57,281 nt of DNA from Actinomycetota bacterium (GTDB taxonomy: Bacteria; Actinomycetota; CADDZG01; WHSQ01): positions 1-57,281 of the forward strand of contig JACDAL010000179.1 in NCBI GenBank assembly GCA_013695465.1, given 5' to 3'. A program made the position numbers and the translations under genes. Below the pieces are notes generated by a model. The model was given only the letters and a program-made list of their open reading frames with translations, was not told the origin of the DNA and ran no database searches. Shown one piece after another: positions 9,065-48,217 of the stretch; position 1 is the first letter of the stretch, and every line of letters begins with the position of its first letter.

Positions 9065-10828
9065 TTATCCCAGCGCAATCGTGCGCCGTGCCACGCCCGC
9101 TCTAGGGTGGCGGGCCTCTATCTCGACGGGGCTTCCCGGGGGGTGGCGGTCGGAGTCGTGCCGCAAAGTGCCTGTGGGCACCTCGATCACCCACTGGGCC
9201 TTGGCCCGGTCGGACGGCTCGTCGGCATCGAGCCACGATGGAAAGCTGCGCTCCGTCACCCTGCCCCCGAGCTGACCGAGCTCGACCTTTGCTTCGCCCG
9301 TGAGCAGCCGAGCGTGCTTCTGACCCCCATCCCCGCCCAGGGTGAGCTCGACCTCGACTCCCGTGCACACTTTGCGCTCGTTCGCCTTGGCGGTAACGTT
9401 CGTGGGCAAGAAGCCCGAATTCCCGACCACCACCGTGATGCGGTAGGTGCTCGGGCCCAGCCGCTCGACCTCGACGCGCTGAAGCTCGAGTCGCGGCGAG
9501 ATCAAGAGGTGGTAGACGGCGAATTCGGAATGAGGAGCGATCTCTTGCTCGAGGAACTCCGGGGGCGGGTTGACCCAGCAATAGAAGAGGTCCCACCCGC
9601 CGAGCTCGACGGGCCCTAGCTGTGGATGATCAATGGGATACCAGTCGATATAGCCGCGGCCCGATAGCTCTTCGTCGTTCCAGGCGAGCAGCTTCAAGTC
9701 GTCCTCGACGGAGTGCTCCTTGAACCACTCGATCAGGTGGAAATCGGTGATGCCGGCACGCCGCTGGGGACTCCAGAACTCGGTGGTCCACGAGAACACG
9801 CCCAGGTGCTCGTAAGTCCAGTCATCCGCGCCCCCCTTGATGGTCGATTTGGGGTCGTACTTGAAGTCGTGGAACACGGACGCGGATGGATATCCGGTTA
9901 GCGCCGTCGCCTTCTCTCCGATCAGCTTGTAGGCGACCAGGTCCTTGGTGGGGAAGTGGTCGTCGGGATGGCTCGAGTAGGGCCGCAGGTGGACGCCTGA
10001 GAAGGTGTGGTAGGTGATATGGGCGGTGATATTGGGCCTCGCCACCACCGCTTCAACCATGGCCCTGACCTCGGGCTCCGACGTCGGGTAAGGGCCGGCC
10101 CCCGACTGCTCGCTCTCGGGCGACCACTCCATCGGATAGTTGCGGTTGAGGTCGAGCCCCTCGACCGGCTCGGCGGGCCTCTCCGACACCCCGTCGTAGC
10201 CCTCGAGGGTGCCTTCGGAGATGATGCGGTAGAAGGTGCCGGCCTTGGCCGGCTCGTCGGGCTCCCGGCGAACCATCAGCCGGGGCTGTTCGGGGTGCGC
10301 CTTCCAAGCGCCGTTGGGGTCCTCCATACGCATCATGAGGATGCGTCCGTCACCGTCGACGTCCTCCTCATGCAGACCCTTGCGGCGATGAGAGAAGGGA
10401 TAGGCCCGGACGCTCGATCTCACGAACCGAGGCCTGTCTGCGAGTGCCAGCTCTGCGCCGTCGGGGTTGAGGCGAGGGACGATGTAGAAGGCCCGGGTGT
10501 CGAGCACCGCAGTGACCCTAGGGTCGCGCTGGTGGCCGCTCAGGAGATGGTGGATGAGATGCAGGGTGGCGGTGCAGCCGGTGACCTCGGCGGCGTGGAT
10601 GTTCGCATCGAGCCACAGCGCGGGCTTGTCCCGATCGGGTCCCGTGTCGAAGTTGGTGACCGTTGCAAGCCAGATGTCGCGTCCCTCATAGGATCTGCCG
10701 ATGCTCTCCAGCCGCAGCAGCGTGGGATGGCTTTTCGCCCAGCCCTCGAGAATCGCACGGAGCTCGTTGTAGCGGAAGAAGCGGTTGAACGGCGGAGGCC
10801 CCTCCGCCGTCACGTCAGTGCTCCGCAC
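9065..10828 (-). CDS. M14-family zinc carboxypeptidase
   Basis: 587 aa with a GTG start. Zinc ligands are visible as His78 and Glu81 in DANIHAAEVTG, with the third His in ITYHTFSGVHLRPYSS. The general-base Glu lies in SWTTEFWSP. VPRLNPDGAE and DLNRNYPMEW are typical substrate-pocket motifs of the family. A C-terminal beta-sandwich of about 170 residues (from ISPRLELQRVEVE) follows the catalytic domain, as in several large bacterial M14 enzymes. No signal peptide is obvious, so location is unclear. It probably trims C-terminal residues from peptides. The start is not strongly supported, since a second in-frame GTG lies five codons later. Confidence 0.87.
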   Translation of the reverse strand: MRSTDVTAEGPPPFNRFFRYNELRAILEGWAKSHPTLLRLESIGRSYEGRDIWLATVTNFDTGPDRDKPALWLDANIHAAEVTGCTATLHLIHHLLSGHQRDPRVTAVLDTRAFYIVPRLNPDGAELALADRPRFVRSSVRAYPFSHRRKGLHEEDVDGDGRILMMRMEDPNGAWKAHPEQPRLMVRREPDEPAKAGTFYRIISEGTLEGYDGVSERPAEPVEGLDLNRNYPMEWSPESEQSGAGPYPTSEPEVRAMVEAVVARPNITAHITYHTFSGVHLRPYSSHPDDHFPTKDLVAYKLIGEKATALTGYPSASVFHDFKYDPKSTIKGGADDWTYEHLGVFSWTTEFWSPQRRAGITDFHLIEWFKEHSVEDDLKLLAWNDEELSGRGYIDWYPIDHPQLGPVELGGWDLFYCWVNPPPEFLEQEIAPHSEFAVYHLLISPRLELQRVEVERLGPSTYRITVVVGNSGFLPTNVTAKANERKVCTGVEVELTLGGDGGQKHARLLTGEAKVELGQLGGRVTERSFPSWLDADEPSDRAKAQWVIEVPTGTLRHDSDRHPPGSPVEIEARHPRAGVARRTIALG

Positions 10829-10876
10829 CGGAGATACGGTCCGTACCGAGAGGCCATTGCACCTTCGTCGCTAGAC

Positions 10877-11007
10877 GCGAGGAGCGCCGCGTACCTGGAG
10901 GGCGCGTGAGCGACGGATCGAATCCCAATTCCGACCTCGGCCGGATAAGAATCCCAATTCCGACCTCGGCGGATAAGAATCCCAATTCCGACCTCGGCGG
11001 AGCCGTG
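10877..11007. repeat. Dispersed repeat, copy A, with three tandem 28-29 bp units
   Basis: Three head-to-tail units start at 10920, 10949 and 10977, each containing CCCAATTCCGACCTCGG. The left flank 10877-10919 (GCGAGGAG...GCGTACC..GGAGGG...GTGAGCGACG) matches the flank of the second copy at 22568-22707. The 249-nt gap in which it lies, between the M14 peptidase and methyltransferase genes, holds no gene. Both the core and the hairpin-bearing flank occur twice in this window in opposite orientation, which marks a mobile or amplifiable intergenic element rather than a local duplication. Confidence 0.75.
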
Positions 11008-11077
11008 CCGTGCCGTGGACGCCGCGAGCGGGGATGCAGGGGGGTTCGAATGTGACCGTATTGACGGGGAGGTGTAC

Positions 11078-11806
11078 CTAGGCCTGACGGCACGACCAGA
11101 CGGCGAGTCTCCACAGCAGGCGGCTTCCCCGGCGCTTGAGATCCACGAGTCCGTCCGAGATCAAACGTGCCACTTTGTCCGATTCCAGAATCGAGCCGGG
11201 CAGCGGGAACTGGCGCTCGATCAGCTTCTTGACGTTTTCCGTTCCGAACAGTCGGCGGGCCGTCTCGAGGACCGTGCTCTCGTCCTGGATCGTGCCGGTC
11301 GGGAGGTAGAGACGGCCACCGGGCTTGAGACAGCTCTGGACGCCCTCCAGCATGGCGACCGGCAGCTCGGCCCCGGTCGGGCCTCCCCCTTTGCCGTCCG
11401 GGAACCACCCGGTCGCCAGCGCTATGGGGTCGGGAATGCCGGAGACGTCCCCGATGATGACGTCGGCCCTGATGTCTCTTACGGGCTCCAGCAGGTTCCC
11501 GACTCTGAACTCGGTCACGGCCGAAATCCCGAGGCGGCGAGCGTTCTCCCCCGCCGTTTTCACTGCTTCGGATGAGAGATCACAGCCATAGGACATGGCG
11601 GCCCTTAGCCGGGCCGCGACGAAGGCGAGGACGCCTGAGCCGCAGCCCACGTCCACGACCACGTCCCCCTCGTGTATCTCCATGGCTTCCGCCAGCGCGA
11701 CGCTCGTGGAGGTCGGCTTGAAAACTCCGGGGGTCAGGGACACGGTGAAGGGACCGGTGCGGCCCTTCCACGTGTATTCGGTTGTCGCTTGCGGCTCGTT
11801 GCTCAT
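11078..11806 (-). CDS. SAM-dependent methyltransferase (class I, PrmA/PrmC-like)
   Basis: 242 aa from the ATG at 11806, chosen because GGGGGA lies just upstream and homology begins here. The open frame extends 85 codons further, but that part is Pro/Gly/Ser-rich and not protein-like. SAM-binding motif I is VVVDVGCGSGVLAFVAA, the acidic end of beta-2 is YGCDLSSEAV, and post-motif VIIGDVSGIPD sits where PrmC has its NPPY tetrad. That catalytic motif is altered, so glutamine methylation is doubtful. SCLKPGGRLYLPTG is motif III. Substrate unknown. Transcribed divergently from icd. Confidence 0.82.
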   Translation of the reverse strand: MSNEPQATTEYTWKGRTGPFTVSLTPGVFKPTSTSVALAEAMEIHEGDVVVDVGCGSGVLAFVAARLRAAMSYGCDLSSEAVKTAGENARRLGISAVTEFRVGNLLEPVRDIRADVIIGDVSGIPDPIALATGWFPDGKGGGPTGAELPVAMLEGVQSCLKPGGRLYLPTGTIQDESTVLETARRLFGTENVKKLIERQFPLPGSILESDKVARLISDGLVDLKRRGSRLLWRLAVWSCRQA

Positions 11807-20998: not shown

Positions 20999-22567
20999 GT
21001 GAGCGACCAGCGCATTACCGATTCGGGCATCGTCGTCGAGCCTGTGTACGGACCTTCTGAGAGACCGGTGCTCAACCCTCCCGGGGAGTATCCCTACACA
21101 CGCGGCATCCACCCGGGCATGTATCGCTCCCGCGTGTGGACCATGCGCCAATACGCGGGCTTTGGATCGGCGGCCGAGACCAACGCTCGCTTTCGCTACC
21201 TGTTGGAGGCGGGCCAGACGGGGCTGTCGGTGGCGTTCGATCTGCCCACACAAATGGGATATGACTCAGATCATCCCCTAGCCGAAGCCGAGGTCGGCCG
21301 TGTCGGCGTCGCCATCGACTCGCTCGCAGACATGGAGCTGCTCCTCGATGGGATCCCTCTGAACGAGGTGTCGACGTCAATGACCATTAACTCAACCGCC
21401 GCGATCCTGTTGCTGCTTTACGAGCTTGTCGCGGCGAAACAGGGAGTGAGCGGCGAACACCTGAGCGGGACGACTCAGAATGATATCTTGAAGGAATACA
21501 TTGCTCGCGGCACCTATATCTATCCTCCCAAGCCTTCGATGCGGATCGCCACCGATCTCTTCTCCTATTGCCAAGACAGGTTGCCGCAATGGAACACGAT
21601 TTCGATATCCGGCTATCACATGCGCGAAGCCGGTTGCACTGCAGTGCAAGAAGTGGCCTTCACACTTGCCGACGCGATTGCGTACGTCGAGGCCGCGATC
21701 GAGGCGGGACTCGAGGTGGATGACTTCGGTCCGCGCCTGTCATTCTTCTTTGCCTGCCACATGAACTTCTTCGAAGAGGTGGCGAAGTTTCGCGCCGCCC
21801 GCAGATTGTGGGCGGGGATCATGAAGGGGCGTTTCGGGGCCTCCAACGAGCGATCAATGATGCTTCGCTTCCATACGCAGACGGGCGGGGCAACGCTTAC
21901 CGCGCAGCAGCCGGAGAACAACATCGTGCGGACTGCACTCGAAGCTCTCTCTGCGGTGCTGGGGGGCACGCAGTCGCTGCACACCAACGCATACGATGAG
22001 GCGCTGGCTCTACCCTCTCAAAGATCGGCCATGATCGCCCTGCGCACACAACAAGTGATCGCGTTTGAGTCCTCGGTCGTCGACTCGGCCGATCCTCTCG
22101 GAGGCTCCTATTTCATAGAGGCGCTGACCGACGGCATCGAAGCTGAAGCGCGCGCCTACATCGAGCGAATCGACGAGCTCGGGGGCGCGGTCGAGGCGAT
22201 CGAATCCGGATACATGAAGCGCGAGATCGAGGACTCGGCCTACCGCATCGCCCGTGAGCTCGAGAGCCGGCGGCGCACGGTCGTGGGTGTGAACAAGTTC
22301 CAGAGCGGCGACGAGGAGGCGGTTGAGCTGTTGGAGATGAAGGAAGAGTGGCTCGGGGCTCAAAAAGCCCGGCTGGCCGAGGTCCGGTCCGGCCGGGACG
22401 AAGACGCAGTGGCCAAGGCACTGCGCGAGCTCGAGGACGCTGCTCGAGGGCGCGACAACCTGCTCTACCCAATGAGAGATGCGCTGGCGGCCTACGCCAC
22501 GCTCGGCGAGGTCTCGGACAGGCTGCGGGAAGTCTTCGGCGAGTACCGACCGCCGGCGAGCCTCTAG
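20999..22567 (+). CDS. Acyl-CoA mutase large subunit, catalytic domain only (methylmalonyl-CoA mutase family)
   Basis: 522 aa from GTG at 20999; the frame upstream is not conserved-looking. The TIM-barrel motifs are clear: [68 protein letters not shown], and [20 protein letters not shown]. The family's full-length mutases have about 200 further residues for B12 binding; these are absent here, so a separate small B12-binding subunit is required. The motifs are compatible with methylmalonyl-CoA mutase and with isobutyryl- or 2-hydroxyisobutyryl-type mutases. Paired with propionyl-type carboxylases elsewhere in the window, a propionate route is plausible. Confidence 0.88.
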
Positions 22568-22707
22568 TGCACCCTCACGCAAGTCCCGTTGTACCAGAAC
22601 GGCCCTGGATCGCCGATGGCGGCGTTACTCGTCGCTCACGTACCCTCCGGGTACGCTCGACTCCTCGCGCCTTGCCCACGGCTCCGCCGAGGTCGGAATT
22701 GGGATTC
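22568..22707. repeat. Dispersed repeat, copy B, inverted relative to copy A
   Basis: The stretch begins at the mutase stop codon. CCGAGGTCGGAATTGGG (in 22688-22704) is the reverse complement of the core unit at 10920-11007. The adjacent segment 22624-22669 corresponds to the flank of copy A in reverse, with a perfect hairpin CGTACCC/GGGTACG at 22639-22655 (3-nt loop). Only one core unit is present here against three in copy A. The 196-nt gap between the mutase and npdG contains no gene. Confidence 0.75.
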
Positions 22708-22763
22708 AATCTGCCGCGCAGTGCCGCCCTGGATACTGACGGTGCTTGCGCTCAGGAGCACAT

Positions 22764-24398: not shown

Positions 24399-24402
24399 AG
24401 TC

Positions 24403-24430
24403 TTAACTCCTTGCTCTTAACTCCTTGCTC
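24403..24430. repeat. Perfect 14-bp tandem duplication over the ribosome-binding site
   Basis: TTAACTCCTTGCTC occurs twice in a row (24403-24416 and 24417-24430). On the minus strand each copy reads GAGCAAGGAGTTAA, so the AAGGAG Shine-Dalgarno of the MarR-GNAT gene is doubled directly before its apparent CTG start. Just beyond, ACTATAGT in CAACTACTATAGTTG is a short palindrome that could be a MarR operator. Confidence 0.7.
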
Positions 24431-29305: not shown

Positions 29306-31037
<1,732 letters not shown>

Positions 31038-38275: not shown

Positions 38276-39973
38276 ATGTTCAAGCGGGTGCTGATCGCCA
38301 ACCGGGGGGAGATCGCGGTCCGAATCGCCCGGACCTGTCGTGAGCTCGGCGTTACGCCGATGGGCGTCTACTCGGACCTCGACCGCCGCTCCCTCCACGT
38401 TTCAGAGATGCGCGACGCGGTTGGCCTCGAGGGCGACAATCCTGCAACCACTTATCTGAACGCGGACGCCCTCATCGCGGCGGCGCACGATCTGGGGGCC
38501 GAGGCGATCCATCCCGGCTATGGCTTCTTGTCCGAGGATGCCCCCTTTGCCGAAGCGGTGACGGCGGCGGGAATCACTTTCATCGGCCCTCCCGTGGAGG
38601 CGCTGCGGGCCTCGGGCGACAAGCTCAGAGCTCGGCGGCTGGCAGCGGCTGCAGGGGTCCCGACGGTGCCGGGGAGCAGCGAGCCCTGCCCAGATCACGA
38701 GGCCGCAGCCGCGCTCGCCGCAAGAGTGGGCCTGCCGGTGGCGATCAAGGCAGCAGGAGGGGGCGGGGGGCGGGGCCTCAGGGTGGCCCACTCGCTGGAC
38801 GACATACCCTCCGCCTTCGACCGGGCCCGGCGAGAGGCGCAGGCCTATTTCTTCTCTTCCGAGGTCTACGTCGAACGCTATCTGCCGGCCCCCAAGCACC
38901 TCGAGGTCCAGATCCTCGCACCCGCGCCCGACGAGGCGCTGTGGCTGGGCGTGCGGGACTGCTCGTTGCAGCGACGCAATCAGAAGCTGGTGGAGGAGAC
39001 GCCGCCCGCTCTGTTCCGAAATCTCGAGCCCGCGATGGGGGCCGCGGCGGCCGGCTTCGCCCGAGCCTGCGGTTACGTCGGGGTGGGGACCGTCGAGATG
39101 CTGGTCGATACTGCGACCGAGTCCTTCTACTTCCTCGAGATGAACGCCCGGCTCCAGGTCGAGCACACCGTGACCGAGGAGGTCTTTGGGATAGACCTTG
39201 TCGCCTGCCAGTTGCTGATCGCCTCGGGCGATTGGCGAGAGGCGCGCCCGAACAACATTCAGCCGCGGGGCCACGCCATTGAGTGTCGCATCAATGCCGA
39301 GGACCCTGCCGCAGGCTTTACCCCGGCCCCCGGACGCATCTCCGGCTACCGAGAGCCTGCCGGGCTTGGAGTGAGGGTCGACTCGGGTTACCGGGCCGGC
39401 GATGAGATCCCCAGCGCTTACGATTCCCTCATCGCCAAGCTGGTCACCTGGGGCTCCGACCGGCACCAGGCCGTGCGCCGCATGCGCAGGGCGCTCGACG
39501 ATTTCGTCATCGAGGGCGTGCCCACGACGATCTCGGCCCACCGAGCGCTGCTGTCCGACGAATCCTTCCTGGCCGGCTCTCACACCACCGCCACGGTCGG
39601 GGAGCTGGCGGCCCGTTTCGAGCCTGCCGCTTCCCCGAGGGCGGAGATTGGGGGCGTGGTGGTCGTGGGCGGGCGGCAGGCCCATCTGTGGCATCCGGCC
39701 ATGGCGGCTTCGGCCACTCAGGCAACCGGCTCGACGGGCGGAGGTGCGGTGGTGGCGCCGATGCAGGCGGTCGTGCTCGAGGTATTGGTGGCGGAGGGCG
39801 ACAGGGTCGTGGCGGGGGCCACGCTCGTGAGGCTCGAAGCCATGAAGATGGAAACCGTGCTGTGCGCTCCTCGGGAGGCTGAGGTCACGCGCGTGGCTGT
39901 GGCTCCGGGAGAGACGGTGCCGTCGGGCGGCGTGGTGGTCGAGCTGGAAGTGGATCCCGTGGATATGGAGTGA
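38276..39973 (+). CDS. Acyl-CoA carboxylase alpha subunit (biotin carboxylase-BCCP fusion)
   Basis: 565 aa. Biotin carboxylase: FKRVLIANRGEIAVRIARTC, ATP-grasp loop IKAAGGGGGRGLRV, RDCSLQRRNQKLVEET, FLEMNARLQVEHTVTEE. C-terminal biotinyl domain has LVRLEAMKMET with Lys524. It differs clearly from the paralogue at 29301 (for example in the linker and the biotinyl domain), so they are not a recent duplication. Expected to form the heteromeric carboxylase with the beta subunit two genes upstream. BirA at 31057 should biotinylate both. The stop overlaps the GTG of the next gene. Confidence 0.93.
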   Translation: MFKRVLIANRGEIAVRIARTCRELGVTPMGVYSDLDRRSLHVSEMRDAVGLEGDNPATTYLNADALIAAAHDLGAEAIHPGYGFLSEDAPFAEAVTAAGITFIGPPVEALRASGDKLRARRLAAAAGVPTVPGSSEPCPDHEAAAALAARVGLPVAIKAAGGGGGRGLRVAHSLDDIPSAFDRARREAQAYFFSSEVYVERYLPAPKHLEVQILAPAPDEALWLGVRDCSLQRRNQKLVEETPPALFRNLEPAMGAAAAGFARACGYVGVGTVEMLVDTATESFYFLEMNARLQVEHTVTEEVFGIDLVACQLLIASGDWREARPNNIQPRGHAIECRINAEDPAAGFTPAPGRISGYREPAGLGVRVDSGYRAGDEIPSAYDSLIAKLVTWGSDRHQAVRRMRRALDDFVIEGVPTTISAHRALLSDESFLAGSHTTATVGELAARFEPAASPRAEIGGVVVVGGRQAHLWHPAMAASATQATGSTGGGAVVAPMQAVVLEVLVAEGDRVVAGATLVRLEAMKMETVLCAPREAEVTRVAVAPGETVPSGGVVVELEVDPVDME

Positions 39974-45873: not shown

Positions 45874-47037
45874 TCAGGACGAGCCGGAGGATGACCGGGT
45901 CTCCGGTTCGGGATCTTCGGCCCCCACCTTGAGCGCCAGCCCGGCCGAGTTCGACACCCAGCGCGGAGAGCCCTGCGAGGCTCTCTTGCCCGGGGGCTGA
46001 CGCAGCCAGGTGCGGGCGATCGCCTTGGTGAAACCCCACGCGTAGCGCATCGTGGTCGGTTTCTTCGTGAGTCCCGAGGCGCGCCGTCGCAGCGTTATCG
46101 GGACCTCCGAGACCCTCAGCCCGCGGCGGGCCGCCTCCAGGATCATCTCTGACACATAGAACTGGTCCTGGCGCAGGTCGAGGCGCTGGAGGGCCTCCGC
46201 AGTTACCGCTCGATAGCCGTTCGAGGGGTCCGAGACCGAGGTGCGTGAGAGGGCGGTGAGCAGTTTGGAATAGAGCATCACGCCGTGCTTGCGCACGCTC
46301 GACTCGACCTCGAAGCTTCCCATGGTCCTCGAGCCCTGGACCATGTCGGCCTCCCCGTCGAGCAGGGGGGTCACCAGCCGCTCCATCTCTGAAGGATCGT
46401 GCTGGCCATCGGCGTCGATCGTCACCACGATCCGGGCCCGGGTCCGCAGTGCCGCCTGGTAGCCGAGCCGCACCGCGGCCCCCGACCCTCGCCGCAGGTC
46501 TCGCCGTATCACCGCAGCTCCCAATGCCCGGGCGGTCGCCTCGGTCTCGTCGGTGCAGCCGTCGGCGACCACAATTGTCATGACCGGCAGGGCCCCGACC
46601 CGGCGAGGCATTTCGCCCAGCACGGTGGGAAGATTGTCCGCCTCGTTGAACGCCGGCAGAACTACCACGCAGGCCCCGTCTGCGGGCGCCACGCCCTCCT
46701 CCTCCAGTCGCCGCAACGCCATGTAGTCGACCAGGTCTCCGATCTCGTCGGAGAGCTGGTCCTCGCGCGAGAACCCCCGGAACACGAGCGCCAGCGTGAA
46801 CAGGTTTGAGAGCACGAGCAGACCGATGATCCGCGCCCGTTCTTGTCCGGGCTTGAACCCCAGGGGGGTAAGAAAAGAGTCGAAGATTCTCGGCGCCAGC
46901 GCCGCGATGGTCAGTCCCAGGACCACGAAGAGGGCGGCCACGAGCTCGCCGCGCCGGAGCTGGCCCTTGCGATAGCGAATTATCGCAAAGACGGCCAGCA
47001 GCAGGGCGACGACGGCGCCGAAGATCCTCAGAGCCAT
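45874..47037 (-). CDS. DUF2304-GT2 glycosyltransferase fusion
   Basis: 387 aa. N-terminal 120 residues are DUF2304: three membrane segments ending LVLSNLFTLALVFRGFSRED. The GT-A domain follows: ACVVVLPAFNEADNLPTVLG, MTIVVADGCTDETEATARAL, RRGSGAAVRLGYQAALRT, and TIDADGQHDPSEMERL with the DADG metal site. Acceptor region: RAVTAEALQRLDLRQDQFYV. Similar to dolichol-phosphate/undecaprenyl-phosphate sugar transferases. Paralogue of the next gene, so the pair probably build related envelope sugars. Confidence 0.9.
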   Translation of the reverse strand: MALRIFGAVVALLLAVFAIIRYRKGQLRRGELVAALFVVLGLTIAALAPRIFDSFLTPLGFKPGQERARIIGLLVLSNLFTLALVFRGFSREDQLSDEIGDLVDYMALRRLEEEGVAPADGACVVVLPAFNEADNLPTVLGEMPRRVGALPVMTIVVADGCTDETEATARALGAAVIRRDLRRGSGAAVRLGYQAALRTRARIVVTIDADGQHDPSEMERLVTPLLDGEADMVQGSRTMGSFEVESSVRKHGVMLYSKLLTALSRTSVSDPSNGYRAVTAEALQRLDLRQDQFYVSEMILEAARRGLRVSEVPITLRRRASGLTKKPTTMRYAWGFTKAIARTWLRQPPGKRASQGSPRWVSNSAGLALKVGAEDPEPETRSSSGSS

Positions 47038-47146: not shown

Positions 47147-48217
47147 TCAGCCCAACCACGTGCGCAGCAGGCTGCGCGCGTAGCCCATTCCATACCGGAA
47201 AACAGGCGGTTTCTTGGTGAAGCCCGCCCGGCGTTCCCTGAACGAGCAGGGCACCTCCCTCACCCGCAGACCGAGCTTGGTGGCCGCTACGGTGACCTCC
47301 GAGGCATGGAACTGGTTCTCCCTGAACTCGAGCACCTCGAGTGCTTCTGCAGAGAAGGCGCGAAACCCGCTGGCGGGGTCCGTGATCGGCTGCCCCGCCA
47401 TGTGAGTGGTTACCCACGCAAACACCTTGAGCCCGTGGGCCCTGCCCCACAGTGGTCGCTCGTAGGCGCCCAACAAGCGTGACCCATGGACGACGTCGGC
47501 CTCGCCCCTCACGATCGGGGAGATGAGCCGGGAAAGCTCGAGGGGGTCGTACTGGCCGTCCGCGTCTACCGTCGCGATCACCACCGCACCGCGCTGCAAC
47601 GCGAGGCGGTAGCCGAGTCTCACCGCGGCCCCCTGCCCACGGCGCAGGTCGCGCCCCGCCACCAGTGCGCCGTGGCGCAGTGCGATGTGCTCGGTGGCGT
47701 CGTCGGAGCCGTCCGACACCACAATCTGGTCGACCTTCATACCGAGGATCACATCGGGAATTACCGCCAGCACGTCTTCGATCCCGTCCGCCTCGTTGAA
47801 CGCGGGAACCACCACCGCGACCGTTCGTTCTGGCGTGACCGAGCGAAGAGGGTTCTCGTGAGTGAACCAGCGGCTCGCGAGACGGTCGGCGTGGTCGCCG
47901 AGCAGGCCCTCCAGCCGATCGGTCTTGGAGAAGGCCCGCAGAAGGAGCAGGAACATGGAGATGTTCGAGAGAACGAGCACGCCGAGCACCCGTCGAGCGT
48001 CCCCCGGGGGAAAGCCCAGTTGCCGCAGTAGCGGATCGACGGTCGCGGGAGCAACCGAGATCACTCCGAGCGCTCCCCCCAGCAGCGCTGTGATGAGGGC
48101 GTCGGGCAGACGCAGCGCCTTCCGGCGGTAACGAGCCGCGGCTACGATTAGCAGCGTCACGGCGACCGCAAGCCCGAGCACACGCAGAAGCATCATCGGA
48201 CTCGTACCAGGCAACAT
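47147..48217 (-). CDS. DUF2304-GT2 glycosyltransferase fusion (paralogue)
   Basis: 356 aa from ATG 48217, favoured by a -10 hexamer 8 nt upstream; the 56-codon longer frame is poorly conserved. Same layout as the neighbour: DUF2304 (LLRVLGLAVAVTLLIVAAAR, LGVLVLSNISMFLLLLRAF), then GT2 with VAVVVPAFNEADGIEDVLAV, RRGQGAAVRLGYRLALQRG and TVDADGQYDPLELSRLI. The acceptor region ITDPASGFRAFSAEALEVLE differs from the first paralogue, so substrates probably differ. 109 nt separate the two genes, both minus strand. Confidence 0.9.
   Translation of the reverse strand: MLPGTSPMMLLRVLGLAVAVTLLIVAAARYRRKALRLPDALITALLGGALGVISVAPATVDPLLRQLGFPPGDARRVLGVLVLSNISMFLLLLRAFSKTDRLEGLLGDHADRLASRWFTHENPLRSVTPERTVAVVVPAFNEADGIEDVLAVIPDVILGMKVDQIVVSDGSDDATEHIALRHGALVAGRDLRRGQGAAVRLGYRLALQRGAVVIATVDADGQYDPLELSRLISPIVRGEADVVHGSRLLGAYERPLWGRAHGLKVFAWVTTHMAGQPITDPASGFRAFSAEALEVLEFRENQFHASEVTVAATKLGLRVREVPCSFRERRAGFTKKPPVFRYGMGYARSLLRTWLG

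Follow-up and report, generated by a model that had tools for sequence, protein, structure and literature searches.

The window analysed in this study is the whole 57,281-nucleotide stretch of contig JACDAL010000179.1, which belongs to an uncultured Actinomycetota metagenome-assembled genome (MAG) of 2.55 Mb in 186 contigs that is 89.5% complete (G000). In an intergenic gap lies a 258-bp element, W1, bordered on one side by the TAG stop codon of a methyltransferase gene (complement 11078-11080) and on the other by an M14 carboxypeptidase gene that probably starts with a GTG at about 10813 (complement). Within W1 three exact copies of the 17-bp core CCCAATTCCGACCTCGG stand on the plus strand at 10924-10940, 10953-10969 and 10981-10997, spaced 29 and then 28 bp from start to start. 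TRF places a tandem repeat at 10920-11001 (period 28, 2.9 copies, score 155), so the three identical cores that the preliminary description saw in this intergenic gap are confirmed both by exact matching and by TRF. A shorter repeat, GCCGT, made from the 3' end of the unit, follows three times at 11002-11016 and occurs four times in the C92 element. W1 (10819-11076) extends beyond the array on either side, so the interval 10877-11007 given earlier clips the feature at both ends. A second element, W2, begins at the base directly after the TAG of a methylmalonyl-CoA mutase gene (22565-22567) and ends three bases ahead of the ATG (22764) with which an F420-dependent oxidoreductase gene probably starts. 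It carries the one inverted exact core of the window (22687-22703, minus strand), and a 31-nt flank is common to both sites at 100% identity (10977-11007 and 22677-22707), its inverted arms being 11,669 nt apart; the single inverted copy of unit and flank reported some 11.7 kb away is thus where it was said to be. Within 3 mismatches CCCAATTCCGACCTCGG has 4 matches in the window, against a mean of 0.34 and a maximum of 2 in 100 shuffles. The features are as follows.

10819-11076, plus strand: W1, MITE-like element of 258 bp, TGCTCC...GGTGTA (sequence, BLAST)
10869-10924, plus strand: central hairpin module X of W1, damaged (model R1, 28.5 bits)
10920-11001, plus strand: tandem array of the 28/29-nt unit, 2.9 copies (pattern search, TRF)
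11002-11016, plus strand: GCCGT three times, from the 3' end of the unit (seen in the sequence)
11017-11076, plus strand: right arm of W1, ending in GGTGTA (sequence, BLAST)
22568-22760, minus strand: W2, 193 bp, of another arm subfamily (93% to C96)
22614-22676, minus strand: intact central hairpin module X of W2 (83.5 bits, E 2.8e-18)
22687-22703, minus strand: single unit core of W2 (pattern search)

The right arm of W1 is followed by CCTAG, which contains the stop codon of the neighbouring gene. Compared with a unit-less element of the same genome (C64), W1 is 82% identical over 10819-10914 and 88% over 11019-11074. The conserved 3' strand of its central hairpin is missing where the array begins, and its score of 28.5 bits under hairpin model R1 (28.6 with filters off) compares with 83.5 for W2, a near-identical copy of which (C96) was in the model. 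The two elements resemble different arm subfamilies, and all the units of W1 lie 3' of the hairpin and none 5', whereas W2 has one unit 5' of an intact hairpin and none 3'. The difference of three units to one had been taken to imply expansion at this site; the counts stand, but the comparison is one of different slots and not of the same site. It should be added that the third unit of W1 could be an assembly error of the MAG.

In the whole of its own genome CCCAATTCCGACCTCGG has 26 exact copies, and 58 places match within 3 mismatches against 5 for a reversed control, in agreement with the earlier view that the array lies inside a dispersed repeat; a lack of further copies, which was to have refuted that view, is thereby ruled out. 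CRISPR repeats span a range of lengths that includes that of the present unit, yet the units here are contiguous at 28-29 bp with no spacers, which rules out a CRISPR array, as had already been suggested. With so many exact copies dispersed through the genome, a CRISPR remnant or a chance tandem repeat is scarcely credible as an explanation of the array.

By BLAST with three elements of the genome and by inspection, 34 elements with both ends parsed were recognised, ranging from 42 to 296 bp. They mostly start with TGC(T/A)CC- or TGGTCC-like sequences and end with approximately the inverse, fall into several arm subfamilies, and, like MITEs, are short, non-coding and bounded by terminal inverted repeats, in the form of TG...CA-type arms; in most of the 15 elements that were folded the ends pair with each other. 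Counted apart from the 34 are the truncated or decayed C117, C80 and C15, the fragments C119 and C127:10324, and two solo units. Counting of units per locus, as the preliminary description proposed, gave 0 to 4 unit matches per element: 18 elements bear units (33 matches with up to 4 core mismatches, two of them partial or shifted) and 16 are without. The short elements form a nested deletion series in which the ends are kept and the middle is lost. Two miniature elements, L088 (C45:30871-30912, 42 bp) and L155 (C142:7685-7736, 52 bp), consist of ends only, beside CTAG/TTAG-type flanks. The solo units, L095 (C45:47033-47067) and L096 (C50:8595-8626), have no arms; read by eye, the prefix of each contains the TGA that closes the gene upstream.

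Units recur in particular slots: before the hairpin (near position 58 of the element), after it (near 140 in the longest element) and within the right arm (C57, C92, C90a and C185a), and some stand in place of a lost hairpin. First units have a GATTGAAT-like prefix and following ones a TAAGAAT-like prefix. The 28-nt joint between units, CGGCGGATAAGAAT, is present twice in W1 and also in C127d, C92, C90a and, with one change, C168, and since it recurs at these four other loci the dimer was already part of the family; tandem copies at 33 nt occur in C185a and C117. Three units in the 28-nt register are found in W1 alone among the 34 elements.

The number and placing of the units allow for another reading, in which the unit, of about 33 nt, would be a micro-mobile element in its own right, nested by insertion in the host MITE and occasionally inserted at other places. 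It occupies at least three slots of the element, its right-arm copy looks like a clean 33-nt insertion when set against unit-less copies, and, as judged by eye, it stands twice without arms next to gene ends; these solo copies (C45:47033 and C50:8595) are not accounted for by slippage inside an element. Against this, the unit is without consistent terminal repeats or a target duplication of its own, its prefix varies by slot between GATTGAAT and TAAGAAT, and nearly all its copies are inside elements, where shared ancestry and recombination can explain them. We therefore regard independent mobility of the unit as unlikely, and favour its being an internal module of the element.

The folding of the 15 elements of the 34 so analysed bears on what the units contribute. 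Folding was clearly better than in shuffles for the unit-less C127a (z -3.8) and C64 (-3.5) and for W2 with its one unit (-4.1), and no better than shuffles for W1 (0.1), C92 (-0.5), C185a (-0.1) and the hairpin-less, one-unit C16 (0.1). The remaining eight elements gave z values from -0.7 to -2.9, among them the short unit-less C185b (-0.7) and C142b (-1.4) and the one-unit C96 (-2.6) and C48 (-1.5). As W1, C92, C185a and C16 fold no better than shuffled sequence, the units may be read as passengers that the structure of the element does not need. The array as a whole probably serves no function.

The position of the elements relative to genes is distinctive. When open frames of at least 70 codons (frames and not annotated genes) were considered in the own genome, 30 of the 34 elements had a stop codon no more than 8 bp from a boundary (at both ends in 8 elements), and 34 of the 38 such stops were within 1 bp of it; only C182, C14a, C16 and C124 had none at either end. 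The same held for 13% of 2000 random window positions and for 29 of 53 CTAG sites of the window, and elements and CTAG sites differ (Fisher p 0.001). In other genomes a stop was near a boundary at 24 of 29 loci, compared with 136 of 658 random places, at a threshold of 50 codons. The commonest flanks in the own genome are CCTAG and CTAAG, and identical 5-bp flanks occur in 6 of 34 elements, where shuffling gave 1.6 (p 0.001). Outside the own genome a strict 5-bp target duplication did not hold up: identical 5-mer flanks were found at 0 of 29 loci and many flanks read CTA|G...C|TAG; these are 29 of the 35 loci, L181, L308, L216, L227, L229 and L236 having been dropped for want of a 155-165 bp end pair. 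The boundary search used for those loci rewards a TA beside the ends, which biases its TA counts (26 and 26 of 34). A TA close to either end is what the elements have in common, and all that can safely be stated is that the target contains TA, any duplication of it being of uncertain length.

At the centre of the elements a conserved asymmetric hairpin, AGGCGCGAGGAG - variable stem - CGACGAGCAACGC, lies within a covarying outer stem. Alignment A1 comprises 35 of the 47 sequences extracted, some of them chosen by motif pattern, and the structure was drawn by hand from it. The twelve sequences left out (disrupted, truncated or near-duplicate copies of the own genome, the truncated L204 and the divergent L185, L187 and L188) make for a selection that favours the model. 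In this alignment the structure pairs in 94.8% of cells. Two-sided changes number 26 against 6.8 in shuffled alignments (reached in 0 of 500), and both sides vary in all three pairs of the outer stem; further pair types, at 10 against 8.9 (160 of 500), show no excess over shuffles. A covariance model detected the hairpin in 29 of the 396 genomes searched in the phylum (E <=0.001), the genomes used for model building included, and in all 9 source genomes of the loci, which are positive by construction.

When the species collection was searched with a degenerate version of the hairpin, 41 stretches matched. Every one comes from a record titled as a MAG, the labels being Actinomycetota (5 bins), Nevskia (2), Elusimicrobia, Candidatus Berkelbacteria, an alphaproteobacterium and an unnamed bacterium. 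There are 26 hairpin copies in the Berkelbacteria MAG and 23 in one Nevskia MAG, and the single-contig genome G287 has nine, with end pairs 155-161 bp apart in which 11-14 of 14 bases match. The arms around the hairpin differ by lineage, which argues against simple contamination by actinobacterial DNA (an argument from the arms and not from bin purity), and the Elusimicrobia and Nevskia copies have inverted-repeat ends beside CTAG/CTTAG-type flanks. Rfam gave nothing for the whole window at the gathering threshold; at E up to 1, for 10750-11150 and six related loci, it gave a tRNA at another place in L209, and matches that fell short of the gathering scores. A text and sequence-string search of the open-licence literature found no paper on the element family, the string matches listed concerning other subjects. 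In three loci of Candidatus Berkelbacteria DeMMO2_25 (L212, L220 and L239) the hairpin is accompanied by another in inverted orientation (CAAGGCGCGACGACGA-like ... GAGGAGGAGCAACG-like), and the ends of these elements look similar to a tRNA T-arm, GGTTCGAATCC. In G210 (contigs C10, C61, C69, C70, C98, C139, C162 and C193) and in some contigs of G011, G014 and G015, hairpin copies are no more than about 145 bases from a contig end, so that these repeats seem to break metagenome assemblies.

Stop-codon position, covariation of the hairpin and its wide spread would each be expected if elements and units were functional signals of the 3' end of genes, such as terminators or sites of RNA processing, maintained by selection and not recently mobile. 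A promoter and terminator scan of 10700-11200, however, gave nothing, and in particular no terminator-like site with a T-tail, other terminator types being outside the scan. Nor would such signals be expected to form lineage-specific multi-copy families with a series of internal deletions, and in W1 the conserved hairpin is itself broken by the array. Selection on a 3'-end signal is therefore an improbable account of the elements, and a MITE-like origin is preferred.

Among relatives the element is more widely distributed than the unit. The unit was searched for as a 20-mer, CCCAATTCCGACCTCGGCGG, which is the core plus CGG; it had no exact match in 84,980 species genomes, where records of the own genome may be absent, and within 2 mismatches it was missing from 59 of 60 relatives and matched once, at 2 mismatches, in the other (G009). 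The 17-mer CCCAATTCCGACCTCGG had no exact match in viral contigs, and there was no match of W1, L191 and L292 to plasmids or of W1 to phages. BLAST with a composite element, on the other hand, gave matches in 14 of 25 genomes, the own genome included, from the family, the class and one further relative, of which the match in G021 (E 0.0075) is doubtful and looks like coding sequence. The copies inspected in the relatives are unit-less; in G023, a relative at class level, 19 nt of the unit match exactly (E 0.006), probably by chance. At 29 of 35 loci from other genomes the ends form a pair 155-165 bp apart, and as the script accepts only pairs in which at least 11 of 14 positions match, it is the constant length that is informative. 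From the unit-less versions of about 161 bp in relatives, the unit looks like a lineage-specific addition, and together with the end pairs they suggest that the ancestral element, too, may be read as unit-less and about 161 bp long.

Of the transposase families that might move the element, PF13546 (IS701-type) and PF01609 (DDE_Tnp_1) had 0 matches in the own genome, and two ORFs with weak rve domains (C13 and C115) were rejected as partners, being below the family cut-off and having no matching ends. No autonomous element sharing the ends was found among the element BLAST matches, nor a suitable transposase with the profiles covered (PF13546, PF01609, PF01797 and rve). The preliminary description had thought of a REP-associated transposase (TnpA-REP, RAYT). 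REP and BIME sequences are extragenic hairpins in mosaic arrangements. The hairpins here are likewise extragenic, and the GGAG that precedes the central one resembles, we presume, a REP foot. To our knowledge, REPs lack inverted TG...CA-type ends with TA-containing flanks, both of which are present here, and the Y1 transposase domain (PF01797) has 0 matches in the own, 89.5% complete genome, while 5 of 14 control genomes were positive. A repeat of the REP/BIME type moved by such an enzyme thus has very little to recommend it.

Considered together, these observations make it likely that the array arose by expansion of an internal module in a non-autonomous, MITE-like element with an ancestor of about 161 bp, and that it grew by slippage or recombination between units. 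The ancestor would have consisted of two imperfect inverted arms with TG...CA-type ends around the covarying central hairpin, and would have been inserted at TA-containing (C/T)TA(A/G) sites by a transposase acting in trans. In a GC-rich, gene-dense genome such sites are often stop codons, so that the surviving copies would be those at gene ends, where insertion may mainly be tolerated. In the lineage of the window a unit of about 34 nt could then have entered the arm beside the hairpin, and also have come to occupy the right arm and the 3' side of the hairpin. Once repeated, units might have permitted slippage and unit-unit recombination, leading to the 28-nt and 33-nt tandems, to removal of a hairpin that stood between two units and to short derivatives. 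W1 would be one such derivative, in which one more slippage step led to three units.

The closest analogy is offered by the BOX elements of Streptococcus pneumoniae, in which, according to PMC3049150, a variable number of boxB modules stands between boxA and boxC, with TIR, TSD, a length of 67-637 bp and extensive secondary structure; BOX is described there as less dense in S. mitis and as almost wholly lacking in other streptococci, although S. suis has related elements. Here too an inner module is present in variable tandem number (0-4 units) between end modules, in folding elements of 42-296 bp. The hosts are unrelated, however, and the present unit occupies several slots and is separate from the hairpin; the elements stand at stop codons and the hairpin occurs in distant phyla. 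By analogy, then, the element may work like BOX as regards architecture, the level at which the two were compared. Set beside them by description, CE, RUP, SPRITE, ERIC and Nezha share with the present elements shortness, lack of coding sequence, mostly inverted ends and strong folding; the present elements differ in having no Rfam match and in boundaries that coincide with the stop codon itself. SPRITE is enriched near the 3' ends of CDS, as stated in PMC3049150, and the words 'stop codon' occur 0 times in the main text of a MITE review (PMC10969869).

The array is thus best seen as the expanded module of a BOX-like MITE that points to an apparently undescribed, cross-phylum element family. 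Forms without units, with one unit, with a dimer or a trimer, and with the hairpin lost make up a series that shows the growth of a modular BOX-like repeat, and a stop-codon-associated, hairpin-bearing family of elements would be common to distant bacteria. The mobilising enzyme, or a role of the hairpin as an RNA signal of the 3' end, becomes directly testable. More speculatively, and with considerable doubt, the host element might represent a cross-phylum class, so far undescribed, of mobile elements with a structure but no gene, about 160 bp or longer, with a conserved hairpin and lineage-specific arms, that insert at stop codons. One widespread trans-acting enzyme would use the hairpin as its handle, in the form of RNA or of single-stranded DNA, and the 33-nt unit would be a second-order parasite of the element.

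Other repeats in the window were also noted. Two inverted pairs, 30079-30190 with 39120-39231 (112 nt, 78%) and 30931-31037 with 38276-38382 (107 nt, 72%), are possibly paralogous genes on opposite strands. At 46460-46669 and 47610-47819 two repeat families share an equal offset of 1150 bp, which suggests a tandem gene duplication. A perfect 14-bp tandem repeat, TCTTAACTCCTTGC in 2.1 copies, is present at 24401-24430 and is unrelated to the array.
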